Shown here: in pieces, positions 3,509 through 39,297 of the stretch
Layout: the number at the start of each line of letters is the position of its first letter
Numbering within the stretch: position 1 is the stretch's first letter
Origin: Paracidovorax cattleyae
GTDB lineage: Bacteria > Pseudomonadota > Gammaproteobacteria > Burkholderiales > Burkholderiaceae_C
DNA length: 64,000 nucleotides
Reading direction: 5' to 3'
Assembly (NCBI RefSeq): GCF_900104515.1
Contig: NZ_FNJL01000020.1
Span: 1 to 64,000 of the forward strand
Program-made: the position numbers and the translations under genes
The notes under the pieces: model-generated
What the model saw: only the letters and a program-made list of their open reading frames with translations
Databases searched by the model: none
What the model was told of the DNA's origin: nothing

Positions 3509-4312
3509 TCAGAAGCGCTCCCAGGGCAGCAGGTAGCGCCACTGGCCTTCGGGCACCCTGGCGAGCGAGACGCGGCCGATGCGCAGCCGCTTGAGCGCCG
3601 TCACCTGCAGGCCCACGGCCTCGCACATCGCGGGGATCTGCCCGGGGCGGATGCCCTTGAGCGCGAAGCGCAGCCGCGTCTCGCTCTGCCAGCTCACCCT
3701 GGCGGGCGGCAGGGGCCGGCCGTTGAACTCCAGGCCCCGACAGAGGCGCTCGAGCCCGCCTTCGGCAATACGCCCTTCCACGGAGGCGATGCATTCCTGC
3801 TCGAGCAGCTCGATGTCTTCGGCCAGGCGGCGCGCCATGCGGCGGTCCTGCGTATAGACCACGAGCCCGCTGGCCGCGTCGGCCAGCGGCGTGAAGCACT
3901 CCTGCTGCCGGAAATGCCGCTGCAGCACCCGCACGGGCGGGCTGTCGCCCACGTACCGGTGGCCGGGCTCCAGCAGCGTGCCGGCGTCGGGTGCCCCGCC
4001 GCTGCGCGCCTGGCGCGGATCGCCGGCGGGGCCCTGGCCGATGCCGGCTTCCCAGCCGGCGGGCTTGTGCAGCAGGAGGGTGACGGGCGGCGCTTCCTCG
4101 GCCTTCGCGTTCTGCGCCACCACGACGTCCTGGTCCGGGCGGACACGGGCTCCCGGCGCCTCGGTCATCCGGCCGTCCACCTGCACCCAGCCGCCTTCGA
4201 TGAGCCACTCGGCTTCGCGGCGGGAGCAGCCGCGCATCTCGGCGACGCGCTTCGACAGGCGGATGTGTCCGGCTTCGCCGGCGCCGGTGTCATTGTGGGA
4301 AAGATCATGCAT
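3509..4312 (-). CDS. S4-domain RNA pseudouridine synthase-like protein, possibly inactive
   Basis: 267 residues. An N-terminal S4 RNA-binding domain (about 16-65) precedes an RsuA/RluB/RluF-type pseudouridine synthase fold (about 76-260). In the family the active-site motif reads R/K-L-D-x-x-x-S-G-L. Here residues 142-150 read PLADAASGL, so the expected catalytic Asp position is Ala144, with an Asp one place later. The enzyme may therefore be inactive or use a shifted residue. I chose the ATG at 4312 because it overlaps the stop of the upstream NUDIX/MBL gene by 8 bp; a longer frame to 4399 has no family match at its N terminus. Confidence 0.8.
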   Translation of the reverse strand: MHDLSHNDTGAGEAGHIRLSKRVAEMRGCSRREAEWLIEGGWVQVDGRMTEAPGARVRPDQDVVVAQNAKAEEAPPVTLLLHKPAGWEAGIGQGPAGDPRQARSGGAPDAGTLLEPGHRYVGDSPPVRVLQRHFRQQECFTPLADAASGLVVYTQDRRMARRLAEDIELLEQECIASVEGRIAEGGLERLCRGLEFNGRPLPPARVSWQSETRLRFALKGIRPGQIPAMCEAVGLQVTALKRLRIGRVSLARVPEGQWRYLLPWERF

Positions 4313-33322: not shown

Positions 33323-34821
33323 CCGGCACTCCCATGCTCACGCTGCAGCAGGCGCACGCGCTCGTGCAGGCCCGCATTCCGCAGGCACGCCTGGTGGGCG
33401 GGCCCGACACGCCGATCGTGCGCGTGCACACCGACACGCGCACGCTGCAGCCGGGCGACCTGTTCGTGGCGCTGCGGGGCGAGCGCTTCGACGCCAATGA
33501 ATTCCTCGCGCAGGCGCGTGCGGGCGGCGCGGCGGCGGCCCTGGCCCATCCGGGTCGGCTGGAGACCGCCGGCCTGCCCGGCATCGAGGTGCCGGACACC
33601 CTGGCCGCCCTGGGCGCGCTGGCGGCGGGCTGGCGTGCGCGCCTCGACCTGCCCCTGATCGGCGTCACCGGAAGCAATGGCAAGACCACCGTCACGCAGA
33701 TGACTGCGGCGGTGCTGCGCGCCTGGAAGGGCGGCGCCGCATTTGCAACGCAAGGCAACTTCAACAACGACATCGGCGTGCCGCTCATGCTGCTGCGCCT
33801 GCGCGCCGGGCACGAGGCCGCGGTGATCGAGCTCGGCATGAACCACCCGGGCGAGATCGCGGTGCTTGCCGGCATCGCGCAGCCCACGGTCGCGCTGGTC
33901 AACAACGCCCAGCGCGAGCACCTCGAATTCATGCACACGGTGCAGGCGGTGGCGGAGGAGAACGGCTCGGTGATCTCCGCGCTCCAGGCCGGCGGCGTGG
34001 CGGTATTCCCGGGGGACGATGCCTACGCGCCCCTCTGGCGCGGCCTGGCCGGCGCGCGCCGCTGCCTCGCGTTCGGCATGGAGCCCGGCTCCACGGCGGA
34101 CGTGCGCTGCACCCGTGCGCAGTGGGATTCCGGCGCCTGGAACATACACATCGACACGCCGCAGGGCGGATTCGATGGCACCGTGCGCATCGCAGGGCGC
34201 CACAACGTGGCCAACGCACTGGCCGCCACGGCCTGCGCGCTGGCCGCCGGAGCTCCGCTCGACGCCATCGCGCGCGGCCTCGCGGCCTTCGAGCCGGTGA
34301 AGGGCCGTTCGCGCGCCTTCACGGCCGCGGTGCCGCAGCCGGGCGGCGGCACCCGCCGGATCACGGCCGTGGACGACACCTACAACGCCAACCCCGATTC
34401 CATGCATGCGGCCATCGACGTGCTGGGCGAACTGCCCGGCCCGCGGTTGCTGGTGATGGGCGACATGGGCGAGGTCGGCGACCAGGGGCCGCAGTTCCAT
34501 GCGGAAGCGGGATCGCATGCGCGCGACCGCGGCATCGAGCGGCTGTTCGCGCTGGGAGCGCTCGGCATTCACGCCGTGCAGGCCTTCGGGCCGCAGGCAC
34601 GGCATTTCGACGACATGGCATCGCTGCTCGCGGCGGTGCGGGACGCCGCGCCCTCGACGGGCAGCGTGCTGGTGAAGGGATCGCGGTTCATGAAGATGGA
34701 ACAGGTGGTGCAGGCGCTGGAGGCGCCGGATGCGGTGTCGCAGATCCACCCCGGAGGCAGCGGCCATGGCGCTGCAGCATGTGCACGTACCACCGCGCAA
34801 GGGGGTGTCGCATGCTCCTGA
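33319..34821 (+). CDS. murF: UDP-MurNAc-tripeptide:D-Ala-D-Ala ligase MurF
   Basis: 500 residues. Adds the D-Ala-D-Ala dipeptide made by Ddl. The ATP loop is [27 protein letters not shown] and [16 protein letters not shown] are MurF hallmarks. The C-terminal 30 residues (Gly/His/Ala-rich) are poorly conserved and run past the start of mraY, giving a 10-bp overlap instead of the 4 bp seen at most other junctions. Confidence 0.96.
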
Positions 34822-35990
34822 TGCTGTCCCAGTGGCTGCAGGGCCTGTCGCCCGAATTCGGTTTCTTCCGGGTCTTCCAGTACCTCACCTTCCGCGCGGT
34901 GATGGCGGCCATGACGGCGCTGCTCATCGGGCTCCTGGCGGGGCCGAAGGTGATCCGCATGCTCACCGCGCTCAAGATCGGCCAGCCGATCCGCGGCTAC
35001 GCGATGGAATCGCACCTGTCCAAGAGCGGCACGCCCACCATGGGCGGCGTGCTCATCCTGGGAGCCATCGCCATCTCCACTTTGCTGTGGTTCGATCTGT
35101 CCAACCGCTTCGTCTGGGTGGTGCTGGCCGTCACCCTGGGCTTCGGCGCCATCGGCTGGGTGGACGACTGGCGCAAGGTCGTGCGCAAGGACCCGGAGGG
35201 CATGCGCTCGCGCGAGAAGTATTTCTGGCAGTCCGTCATCGGCATCGTGGCCGCGCTCTACCTGGTGTTCTGCATTTCCGAGAACTCCAATGCGCGCGTG
35301 TTCGAACTCTTCATCACCTGGATCCAGTCGGGCTTCTCGATGGACCTGCCGCCCCAGGCGGGCCTGCTCGTGCCGTTCTTCAAGGAAGTGAGCTACCCGC
35401 TGGGCGTGCTGGGCTTCGTGATCCTGACCTACCTCGTCATCGTGGGCTCCAGCAACGCGGTCAACCTGACCGACGGGCTGGACGGCCTGGCCATCATGCC
35501 GGTGGTCATGGTGGGCGCCTCCCTGGGGGTGTTCGCCTACGTCACGGGCAGCGCGGTGTATTCCAAGTACCTGCTCTTTCCCAACATCGCCGGTGCGGGC
35601 GAACTGCTGATCTTCTGCTCGGCCATGGCCGGCGCGGGGCTGGCCTTCCTCTGGTTCAACACCCATCCGGCGCAGGTCTTCATGGGCGACGTGGGCGCGC
35701 TCGCGCTGGGCGGCGCCCTGGGCACCATCGCCGTGATCGTGCGCCAGGAAATCGTGCTCGCCATCATGGGCGGTATCTTCGTGGTCGAGGCCCTCTCGGT
35801 GATGCTGCAGGTCACCTGGTTCAAGTACACGAAGCGGCGCCATGGCGAGGGCCGGCGCCTGCTCAAGATGGCGCCGCTGCACCACCACTTCGAGAAGAGC
35901 GGCTGGAAGGAGACGCAGGTCGTCGTGCGCTTCTGGATCATCACCATGCTGCTGTGCCTGATCGGCCTCACCACGCTCAAGCTGCGATGA
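34812..35990 (+). CDS. mraY: Phospho-MurNAc-pentapeptide transferase MraY
   Basis: 392 residues, about ten membrane helices. Makes lipid I at the inner membrane from UDP-MurNAc-pentapeptide and undecaprenyl phosphate. The active-site aspartate motifs are seen: [19 protein letters not shown] and [12 protein letters not shown], and the C-terminal [16 protein letters not shown] is diagnostic. The longer frame that begins upstream is murF shadow; I use the ATG at 34812. Confidence 0.97.
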
Positions 35991-38017
35991 ATCCGACCGA
36001 TCGCGACCTCCATCCCGCCGCCGGCGCCCCCCTGGGCGCCGAAGCCGCGCCATGGCCCCGTCCCGCCGCCGTGGCGGAGGAGGCGCCTGCGCCAGCCGAA
36101 AGCCTGGCAGCCGACGGCCCTGCAGCCGGGAACGCGGCAGCTGAAAGCCCGGCCGGGGACTGCGCGCCAGCGCACGCCACCGAAGCCGCCGGCACCGCCG
36201 ACGCGCCGTTGGCCGTGGAGGCCGGAGGCGGCCCGGAGCCGGTGGCAGAGACCGCTGCGCAACCGGCGGCGCTGGCGGACGGATTCGACATGACCGCGCC
36301 GCGCGTTTCCGCCGCGCAGGCGGCCGCGGAGTTCGTGGCCCGCATCTTCGCGGATGTCCAGCCCGAGGCATCCCCTGCAGCCGATGCCGCCGACGTGGGC
36401 GAGGCGCCCGGGGATGACGCTGCCGGGGCGACGGACGCTCCCGCGGACGGTGTCGAGCCCGCCGAACCCCTCGGCCGTCCGGCGGACACGCTGCGCCCGC
36501 TGGCGGGCCGCCGCATCCTCATCCTGGGCCTGGGCGCCTCGGGGCTGGCCATGGCACGCTGGTGCGTGCGCTGCGGCGCCGAGGACGTGACCGTGGCCGA
36601 TACCCGCGAGGCTCCGCCGCAGTTGGCGGTGCTGCGATCCGAGCTGCCCGATGTGCGCTTCGTCGCGGGCGCGTTCGACGCGGCGCTGGTGCAGGGCCAC
36701 GGCCTGCATGCCGTCTATCGGTCGCCGGGCCTGGCGCCCGATACCGTGGCCCCGGTGTTCGTCGCGGCCAGCGCCGACGGCATCGCCACCGGAGGCGAGC
36801 TCGGCCTTTTCGCCATGGCGCTGGCTGCGCTCAAGGCCTCCCATGGCTACGCGCCCGCGGTGCTGGCCATCACCGGCACCAACGGCAAGACCACGGTGAC
36901 CTCGCTCACCGGCCTGCTCGTCGAATGCGCGGGCCTTTCGGTGGCCGTGGCCGGCAACATCGGCCCGACGCTGCTCGACACCCTGGGTCGCCACCTGGAT
37001 GCCGACACCCTGCCCCAGGCCTGGGTGCTGGAGCTGTCCAGCTTCCAGCTCGATGGCGCAGCCGGTTTCGAGCCCACCGCGGCGACCGTGCTCAACGTGA
37101 CCCAGGACCACCTCGACTGGCACGGAGACATGCAAGCCTATGCGCGCGCCAAGGCCCGGATCTTCGGCGAATCCGGCCTCATGGTGCTGAACCGCGAGGA
37201 CGCCGCCGTGATGGGCATGCTGCCGCCGCCCGTGCGCGTGAAGCTGCAGAAGCCGCAGTTGCGCGCCCATGTGACCTTCGGGGCGGACATGCCCCAGCGG
37301 CCGGGCGATTTCGGCATCGAGACCGTCAACGGCATGGCCTGGCTGGTCCGCGCGCAGGAGTCCGACGAGACGGCCAGGCGCACGCGCAGCCACGCCGAGG
37401 AAGATCTGCATATCCAGCGGCTCATGCCGGCCGACGCGCTGCGCATCCGCGGCCGCCACAATGCCGTGAACGCGCTGGCCGCGCTGGCGCTTGCGCATGC
37501 GGCCGGCTGCGCGTTCGCGCCCATGCTCTATGCCCTGCGCGAATACCGCGGCGAGCCGCACCGCGTGGAGCCCGTGGGCCGGGTGAACGACGTGGAGTAC
37601 TTCGACGACAGCAAGGGCACCAACGTGGGCGCCACGGTGGCCGCGCTGGGCGGCCTGGGTGCCGACCGCCGCGTCGTGGTGATCCTGGGCGGCGACGGCA
37701 AGGGCCAGGACTTCTCTCCGCTGGCCATGCCGGTGTCGCGCTACGTGCGCGCCGCGGTGCTCATCGGTCGCGACGGTCCGCAGATCCGCGCCGCCCTGCG
37801 GGATGCGGGCGTGCCGCTGGTCGATGCGCCCACGCTGCCGGAGGCCGTGCGCCTGGCCGCGCAGCGGGCCCATGCGGGCGATGCGGTGCTGATGTCGCCC
37901 GCCTGTGCGAGCTTCGACATGTTCCGCAACTACGAACACCGCGCCGACGTGTTCCGCGAGGCCGTGCAGGCGCTCGCGGACGAGGCCGGGCAGGCGCTGG
38001 AAGGGGGGCTGGCATGA
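35987..38017 (+). CDS. murD: UDP-MurNAc-L-Ala:D-Glu ligase MurD with long N-terminal extension
   Basis: 676 residues, against the usual 440-500. The core starts near residue 170 ([22 protein letters not shown]). It has the ATP loop TGTNGKTTV (about 296-304), [35 protein letters not shown] and [10 protein letters not shown], all typical of MurD. Residues 1-168 are an Ala/Pro/Glu/Gly-rich extension with one helix-like patch ([14 protein letters not shown], 108-121). The ATG used overlaps the mraY stop by 4 bp like its neighbours; an internal ATG at 36290 is an alternative. The function of the extension is unknown. Confidence 0.94.
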
Positions 38018-39297
38018 GCGCGGGCGCTGCTGCAACCTCCCCGCAGGGCCTGCGCCAGCGGATGGCCGGCTGGTTTGGCCGCGGCGCCGCGCCCGCGGCC
38101 GACGTGCTGCCCGTGCGCGTCGGCGGCACCGAGTACCGCCAGACCACGACCACCCCGGCGCGCGTGCTCGGGTTCGACCAGGCCCTGCTCTGGGTGGTGG
38201 TCGCGCTGCTGGCCTGGGGGCTGGTCATGGTCTATTCGGCCTCCATCGCCATGCCCGACAACCCGCGCTTCGGCAAGATCGCGCCCACCCATTTCCTCAT
38301 GCGCCACATCTTCGCGCTGGGGATGGGTTTCGTGGCGGCGCTGCTCGCCTTCCAGGTGCCCATGTCCGTATGGGAGCGCGTCGCGCCCTGGCTGTTCGTG
38401 CTCTCCATCGTCCTGCTGATGGCGGTGCTGGTGCCGCACGTGGGCACGGTGGTCAACGGCGCGCGGCGCTGGCTGTCATTGGGCATCATGAACTTCCAGC
38501 CCTCGGAGCTCGCGAAGTTCGCGGTGCTGATCTACGCGGCCGACTACATGGTGCGCAAGATGGAAGTGAAGGAGCGCTTCTTCCGCGCCGTGCTGCCCAT
38601 GGGCGTGGCGGTGGCGGTCGTGGGCGTGCTGCTGCTGGCCGAGCCCGACATGGGCGCCTTCATGGTGATCGCCATCATCGCCATGGGTATCCTGTTCCTG
38701 GGCGGCGTCAACGCCCGCATGTTCTTCCTCATCGCCGCCGTGCTGGTGCTGGCCTTCGCCATCATGGTCATGGGCAGCCCCTGGCGGCGCGAGCGGATCT
38801 TCGCCTACCTCGACCCCTTCAGCGAAGCGCACGCGCTCGGCAAGGGCTACCAGCTGTCGCACTCGCTCATCGCCATCGGCCGCGGCGAGATCTTCGGCGT
38901 CGGGCTGGGCGGCAGCGTGGAAAAGCTGCACTGGCTGCCCGAGGCCCACACCGACTTCCTGCTCGCCGTGATCGGCGAGGAATTCGGCCTCGTCGGCGTG
39001 CTGGTCGTGATCGCGCTGTTCTTCTGGATGACGCGCCGCATCATGCACATCGGCCGCCAGGCCATCGCGCTCGACCGTGTCTTCGCCGGTCTCGTCGCGC
39101 AGGGCGTGGCGATCTGGATGGGCTTCCAGGCCTTCATCAACATGGGCGTGAACCTCGGCGCCCTGCCCACCAAGGGCCTGACCCTGCCGCTCATGAGCTT
39201 CGGCGGCTCGGCCATCCTCATGAACCTCGTCGCGATCGCGGTGGTGCTGCGGGTGGACTATGAAAACAAGCATCTCATGCGCGGAGGCCGCGTATGA
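38014..39297 (+). CDS. ftsW: Peptidoglycan glycosyltransferase FtsW (SEDS family)
   Basis: 427 residues with about ten membrane helices after a 50-residue cytoplasmic N terminus. FtsW polymerises septal glycan with FtsI. The SEDS hallmarks are visible: [30 protein letters not shown] (catalytic Asp), [16 protein letters not shown], and the closing [16 protein letters not shown]. Overlaps murD and murG by 4 bp each. Confidence 0.96.

Follow-up and report, generated by a model that had tools for sequence, protein, structure and literature searches.

A conserved, predicted helical motif in a disordered N-terminal arm of MurD in part of one Burkholderiales family

The MurD protein encoded in the analyzed window, a stretch of 64,000 nucleotides from contig NZ_FNJL01000020.1 of Paracidovorax cattleyae, carries ahead of its catalytic core a long arm in which one 17-residue motif is approximately as constrained as the core, while the rest of the arm drifts. 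The arm is probably a translated, disordered tether, with the motif as its functional unit, an amphipathic docking helix for a protein partner. Docking is the best explanation because a slowly evolving predicted helix lies in a fast-evolving disordered arm, is found in one protein as far as searched, and occurs there in two places. The 17-residue stretch would fold as a helix, predicted at low confidence in the window model, and would dock onto the partner through its hydrophobic face (A, A, A, F, V, I/L, F), with the arm acting as a flexible spacer that holds MurD nearby. The coordinates of the features are collected in Table 1.

Table 1. Features of the murD region, in window coordinates.
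Feature	Position	Strand	Basis or comment
mraY	34812..35990	+	start picked by eye; upstream neighbour of murD; stop overlaps murD start (ATGA)
murD ORF, 676 aa	35987..38017	+	sole MurD-core match in its own genome at E <= 0.001
N-terminal disordered arm of MurD, 168 aa, A/P/D/G/E-rich	35987..36490	+	composition; AlphaFold block pLDDT 28-39, residues 1-150
Conserved, predicted helical motif of MurD, 17 residues (108-124)	36308..36358	+	alignment, dN/dS, AlphaFold
Variable linker from motif to MurD core	36359..36490	+	second motif Phe to core is 36-58 residues in 69 motif-bearing proteins
In-frame internal ATG (M102), just 5' of motif	36290..36292	+	possible alternative start, Paracidovorax species group
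MurD catalytic core, three Mur ligase domains	36491..38014	+	Pfam, TIGR01087, structure matches
Insertion site used in genera g72/g122, about core residues 112-118	36824..36844	+	no insertion in the window
FtsW cytoplasmic N-terminal patch	38101-38142		LPV[RNHW] core comparison, 76 loci

By family membership, the product of murD is predicted to be the UDP-MurNAc-L-Ala:D-Glu ligase. Residues 176-661 score 343.2 bits with model TIGR01087 (murD), for which the cutoff is 211.95, and the Pfam families MurD-like_N (also from residue 176), Mur_ligase_M and Mur_ligase_C all score above their cutoffs, giving the three-domain Mur ligase fold. The best Foldseek matches of the model are likewise MurD structures (8dp2, E 5.4e-43, TMt 0.82). 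The core resembles in sequence and fold the solved MurD enzymes of E. coli (1UAG/2JFG) and P. aeruginosa (8DP2), and is 96% and 95% identical to those of Paracidovorax citrulli and P. oryzae, the nearest named relatives among the matches listed. The matched solved chains comprise 437-459 residues, their single-stretch alignments begin at residue 169 or 173 of the window MurD, and a profile of the motif finds no match in any solved chain up to E 10. An extension of 168 residues ahead of the core, as first proposed from the DNA, is thus borne out, and residues 1-168 searched alone match no Pfam or NCBIfam family. A bifunctional Mur fusion was rejected, since these residues contain no second Mur or other enzyme domain in either collection.

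The arm was originally described as low-complexity sequence rich in Ala, Pro, Glu and Gly. The composition was correctly seen (56 A, 23 P, 15 D, 15 G and 14 E among 168 residues), but the arm is more than a low-complexity tail, since it includes one conserved motif. The helix-like patch noticed at the same time (residues 108-121) is indeed present; what had been missed is that it coincides with the strongest conservation in the arm and that a similar motif occurs elsewhere in MurD of related genera. The consensus is [ST]AAxxAAxFVAx[IL]FA[DE]V, found once per arm. In a length comparison of 106 distinct related MurD proteins, taken from the best 80 named loci and 30 loci of a 200-genome family sample, 69 have an arm of 74-199 residues with the motif, a proportion that is not a prevalence because the loci were picked by similarity. 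The remaining 37 are devoid of a motif-bearing arm, a few of them having short motif-free arms of 28-56 residues (L044, L046, L062, L068, L082 and L106). In loci of genus g95, the motif-bearing arms comprise approximately 67-72 residues. Motif-bearing lineages include Acidovorax, Paracidovorax, Comamonas, Delftia, Polaromonas and most Simplicispira rows, among others.

Counted from the first Phe of the motif (position 0), residues A-7, A-6, A-3 and V1 are invariant in all 69 proteins, V1 having been allowed as V or C in the search expression, whereas the invariance of F0, A2 and F5 is partly by construction because that expression fixes them. Among 87 rows selected instead with a profile (82 arm and 5 interdomain copies, the latter described below), A-7 is conserved in 84, A-6 in 86, A-3 in 87, F0 in 85, V1 in 87, A2 in 87 and F5 in 81, with F0 replaced by Tyr in two rows and F5 by Ala in five and Trp in one. 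Outside the motif, the arms of the profile-selected rows consist of 25% Ala, 18% Pro, 10% Glu and 7% Asp. The motif is therefore a short conserved stretch within variable sequence, as is characteristic of docking motifs (SLiM/MoRF) at the level of sequence.

Comparison of closely related species reveals the same pattern. Nei-Gojobori-style dN/dS for pooled pairs was calculated in eight comparisons from seven close-species groups, one of which was also used reduced to its three closest members. The ratio ranges over 0-0.090 in the motif, 0.311-0.573 elsewhere in the arm and 0.047-0.131 in the core; single values are rough because two groups consist of two species each and the motif has 17 codons. 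In all eight comparisons the motif lies far under the rest of the arm, and only in Delftia is it slightly above the core. Synonymous changes are frequent within the motif (pS 0.16-0.40), and conservation is therefore at the level of the peptide.

The original prediction that the extension is probably translated is well supported by these ratios, below 1 throughout the arm and very low in the motif, and by the alignment of related loci, in which the frame is maintained through many length changes. The open frame and the ATGA overlap with mraY, on which that prediction relied, were both confirmed (murD ATG 35987-35989, mraY stop TGA 35988-35990). The segment of MraY from the window aligns next to MurD in each of the 111 loci, out of 113, that have a core match. 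The 4-base overlap of the murD start with the mraY stop recurs in 73 of 82 distinct rows with arm and motif, where the script takes the first start codon, and the start so assigned is ATG in 80 of the 82. It is extremely unlikely that the arm is instead untranslated or unconstrained low-complexity sequence, with translation beginning inside it, near the core. High GC makes open frames common, and an open frame is weak evidence by itself here because none of the three reverse frames of the arm contains a stop either (each of the two remaining forward frames has 2). Inspection by eye shows nothing resembling a Shine-Dalgarno sequence ahead of 35987 and a weak GGACGGA ahead of the ATG at 36290; 80 of 82 rows have in-frame start-type codons after the motif and before the core, ATG being among them in 29. 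Codon-position GC, which had been suggested as a check, proved non-classical and ambiguous, with GC1/2/3 of 0.869/0.667/0.798 for the arm and 0.770/0.502/0.911 for the core, the lower GC3 of the arm being compatible with an internal start. Against such a start stand the low ratios in all eight comparisons, the retained frame and the recurrent overlapping ATG. A Met occurs in the motif match or up to about 10 residues upstream in 17 of the 82 arm-bearing rows, and initiation at 36290 is possible in the Paracidovorax species group, where the motif helix would be retained even then. An antisense ORF of 191 residues also runs across the arm on the minus strand (35977-36552), and looks like a by-product of high GC because all reverse frames of the arm are open.

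In the AlphaFold2 model of the window MurD, calculated from 46 aligned sequences of which 40 carry the motif, the core is mostly confident, and the arm, the disorder of which is judged by model confidence and composition only, stays at the low values given in Table 1 up to residue 150. The sole secondary structure in residues 1-155 is a helix at 109-122, with a block pLDDT of 39. The hydrophobic moment of the arm peaks almost exactly there (0.49, residues 109-124), a feature that would suit an amphipathic membrane anchor, and tethering to the membrane was among the functions first suggested. A membrane-targeting helix, however, would be positively charged or strongly hydrophobic, and this is not what was found, because the 17-mer has a net charge of -1 in 72 rows, -2 in 7, -3 in 1 and 0 in 7, never positive in any of the 87, and its hydrophobic face is largely alanine. 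Anchoring in the membrane is accordingly disfavoured and we regard it as very unlikely.

A second location of the motif was found in two genera, g72 (G071, G255, G177) and g122 (G122, G215, G285), where MurD has no arm and opens directly with the core, 4-13 bases beyond the mraY stop. In these proteins 204-341 residues separate the first domain from the P-loop, compared with the usual 116, and in five of the six genomes read the Ala/Pro/Glu-rich insertion between domains 1 and 2 includes the motif, as in TAAREAAEFVAKIAELS. The motif-bearing insertions add 168-225 residues and resemble the arm in composition; the sole exception, G177 (L122), has a shorter insertion with no motif. When scored with a profile derived solely from N-terminal copies, all five interdomain copies obtain 16.5-22.5 bits, a score reached by none of 5000 shuffles of each stretch (the largest being 13.2 bits), and whole-genome profile searches find them at E 1e-4 to 0.007. 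The copies are like the N-terminal ones over the first two thirds, have Ala at F5 in five of five, and diverge afterwards. In the AlphaFold2 model of a g122 MurD (24 aligned sequences), residues 252-270 form a helix in an otherwise largely unstructured insertion, with block pLDDT of 67 and 74 between neighbours mostly at 31-39 before and 44-47 after it. Shorter motif-free insertions are found at the same place in related genera (L123-L126, L134, L135 and L156); together with L122, these are perhaps the raw material of the motif-bearing insertions, or their remnants after loss.

The middle domain of MurD carries another kind of insert in relatives of the window organism. A near-identical in-frame stretch is present there in four species (L025, L027, L040 at 3759-3797 and L043 at 3771-3809), as inserts of 87-90 bp or 29-30 residues; L028 has an 84-bp insert of related sequence at another place, and L074 a similar peptide. 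The repeat is dispersed in all 13 genomes of the window's genus, the window's own included (1-15 matches at E <= 1e-5), with some copies in G088 in tandem at 84-bp spacing, and was found in none of eight genomes of other families. Two related genomes, L035 (5827-5865) and L095 (4324-4362), also have its pattern downstream of murD, at a distance that would place it near the ftsW-murG junction, and the window itself has no match to the consensus pattern with up to 3 mismatches. By analogy, the repeat recalls mobile palindromic elements inserted in genes; neither MurD insert folds better than its own shuffles.

Among the genomes searched, the motif is specific to MurD. In its own genome the profile matches MurD at E 7.8e-11, followed at 0.094 by a protein named by eye as Tct-like and periplasmic. 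A shared cargo tag carried by several clients was rejected, the own genome having a good match in MurD alone. In the family sample the motif occurs in MurD of at least 47 out of 299 genomes, namely all 41 matching at E <= 1e-4 and six with weaker matches, each confirmed in MurD (G095, G071, G255, G270, G122 and G225), the count being a lower bound. In an order-wide sample of 399 genomes that includes the own family, five genomes of other families gave weak matches, the best at 8.1e-4; none of the four inspected is MurD, and the fifth (G583) stands outside the count. In a sample of 299 genomes of the phylum, all four matches at E <= 0.01 lie within the window's own family. The non-MurD matches inspected are unrelated, comprising, as named by eye, a sensor kinase (two genomes), an acyl-CoA dehydrogenase, a short frame and the Tct-like protein. 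In a FastTree tree of core plus MraY with 156 rows (from 167 records after removal of the incomplete L114 and of identical proteins), 82 rows have the arm, 5 the interdomain copy and 69 no motif, and the three classes require seven changes. Three rows without the motif (L032, L034 and L138) lie inside the large arm-bearing clade, two of them armless and the third with a stub of about 15 residues. The interdomain motif may have arisen by relocation, with shared ancestry, or by convergence, and these are not distinguishable because 44 of the 153 inner branches are open.

The partner of a docking helix would most likely belong to cytoplasmic peptidoglycan-precursor assembly, as another Mur enzyme, MurG, MraY or an organiser; tethering to other Mur enzymes had been suggested at the outset. 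Two candidates for a partner that tracks the motif were rejected: MreB is present in all 45 genomes compared (24 with the motif and 21 without), and bactofilin in 43, being absent from one genome with the motif (G120) and one without it (G153). Since their presence does not follow the motif, this leaves a lineage-specific partner, a universal partner with a lineage-specific groove, or MurD itself. In the last case the helix would act in cis or homotypically, docking on the MurD core or joining the arms of several MurD molecules, for regulation or oligomerisation. The occurrence of the motif only in MurD among inspected matches is as expected for this arrangement, the core is within reach from both sites (36-58 residues from the arm motif, and 46-48 residues from the interdomain motif F to the P-loop), and the interdomain helix is predicted with the higher confidence. 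On the other hand, the N-terminal helix remains at its low pLDDT in spite of an alignment in which most rows carry the motif, and none of the 12 columns of MurD core and MraY that differ most between motif-bearing and motif-free rows followed the motif outside the main clade. A cis or homotypic role appears unlikely. An LPV[RNHW] core near the N terminus of FtsW, found in 67 of the 76 loci read, is present in 51 of 51 loci with the MurD motif and in 16 of 25 without it; the rows are related and the association is confounded by kinship, so that it is a lead and not a result.

A protease could also plausibly initiate at a disordered arm that bears a short hydrophobic patch, and helix and arm could together form a degron or an adaptor-recognition tag for the turnover of MurD. 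In our judgement, a generic hydrophobic degron would less usually show strong constraint at many positions or lie inside the protein, between domains, and we hold this role to be improbable. Returning to docking onto a partner, we give about an even chance to a more specific evolutionary reading, in which part of one family evolved a dedicated docking helix recruiting MurD alone to an undescribed partner, and in which, in g72 and g122, the helix either arose anew in the loop joining domains 1 and 2 or was transferred to it.

Short linear motifs and molecular recognition helices in disordered regions form a general class, and the MurD motif resembles them in that a short predicted helix is conserved while the disordered region around it drifts, and this at two sites of the protein; unlike motifs shared by several clients, it is found on one protein. 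No description of the arm or the motif was found among the matches listed in the literature searched, which was mostly non-subscription. Bordetella belongs to the same order as the window organism. Two papers describe a MurE-MurF fusion in Bordetella pertussis (PMC6420597) and fusions of MurE with MurF and of MurG with MurC (PMC4929429), which are likewise read there as holding Mur enzymes together; the window MurD, in contrast, has no fused second enzyme domain, only a disordered arm and a predicted helix. The two papers also propose that oligomers of MurG might serve as a scaffold in Bordetella (PMC6420597) and state that MurD, MurE and MurF did not bind one another without MreB or MurG (PMC4929429). 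Scaffolding by MurG or MreB (PMC4929429) would provide the kind of partner that a docking helix might address, and a natural setting for it; the parts seen of both papers (PMC6420597, PMC4929429) mention no such motif.

It has long been asked whether the Mur ligases operate as an organised complex. A short, strongly conserved helix that some lineages possess and close relatives lack offers a handle on this question, as a bait, as a target for deletion that spares the active site, and for transplantation. If the two locations in MurD are the same device, selection would be keeping proximity to the partner rather than the surrounding fold.
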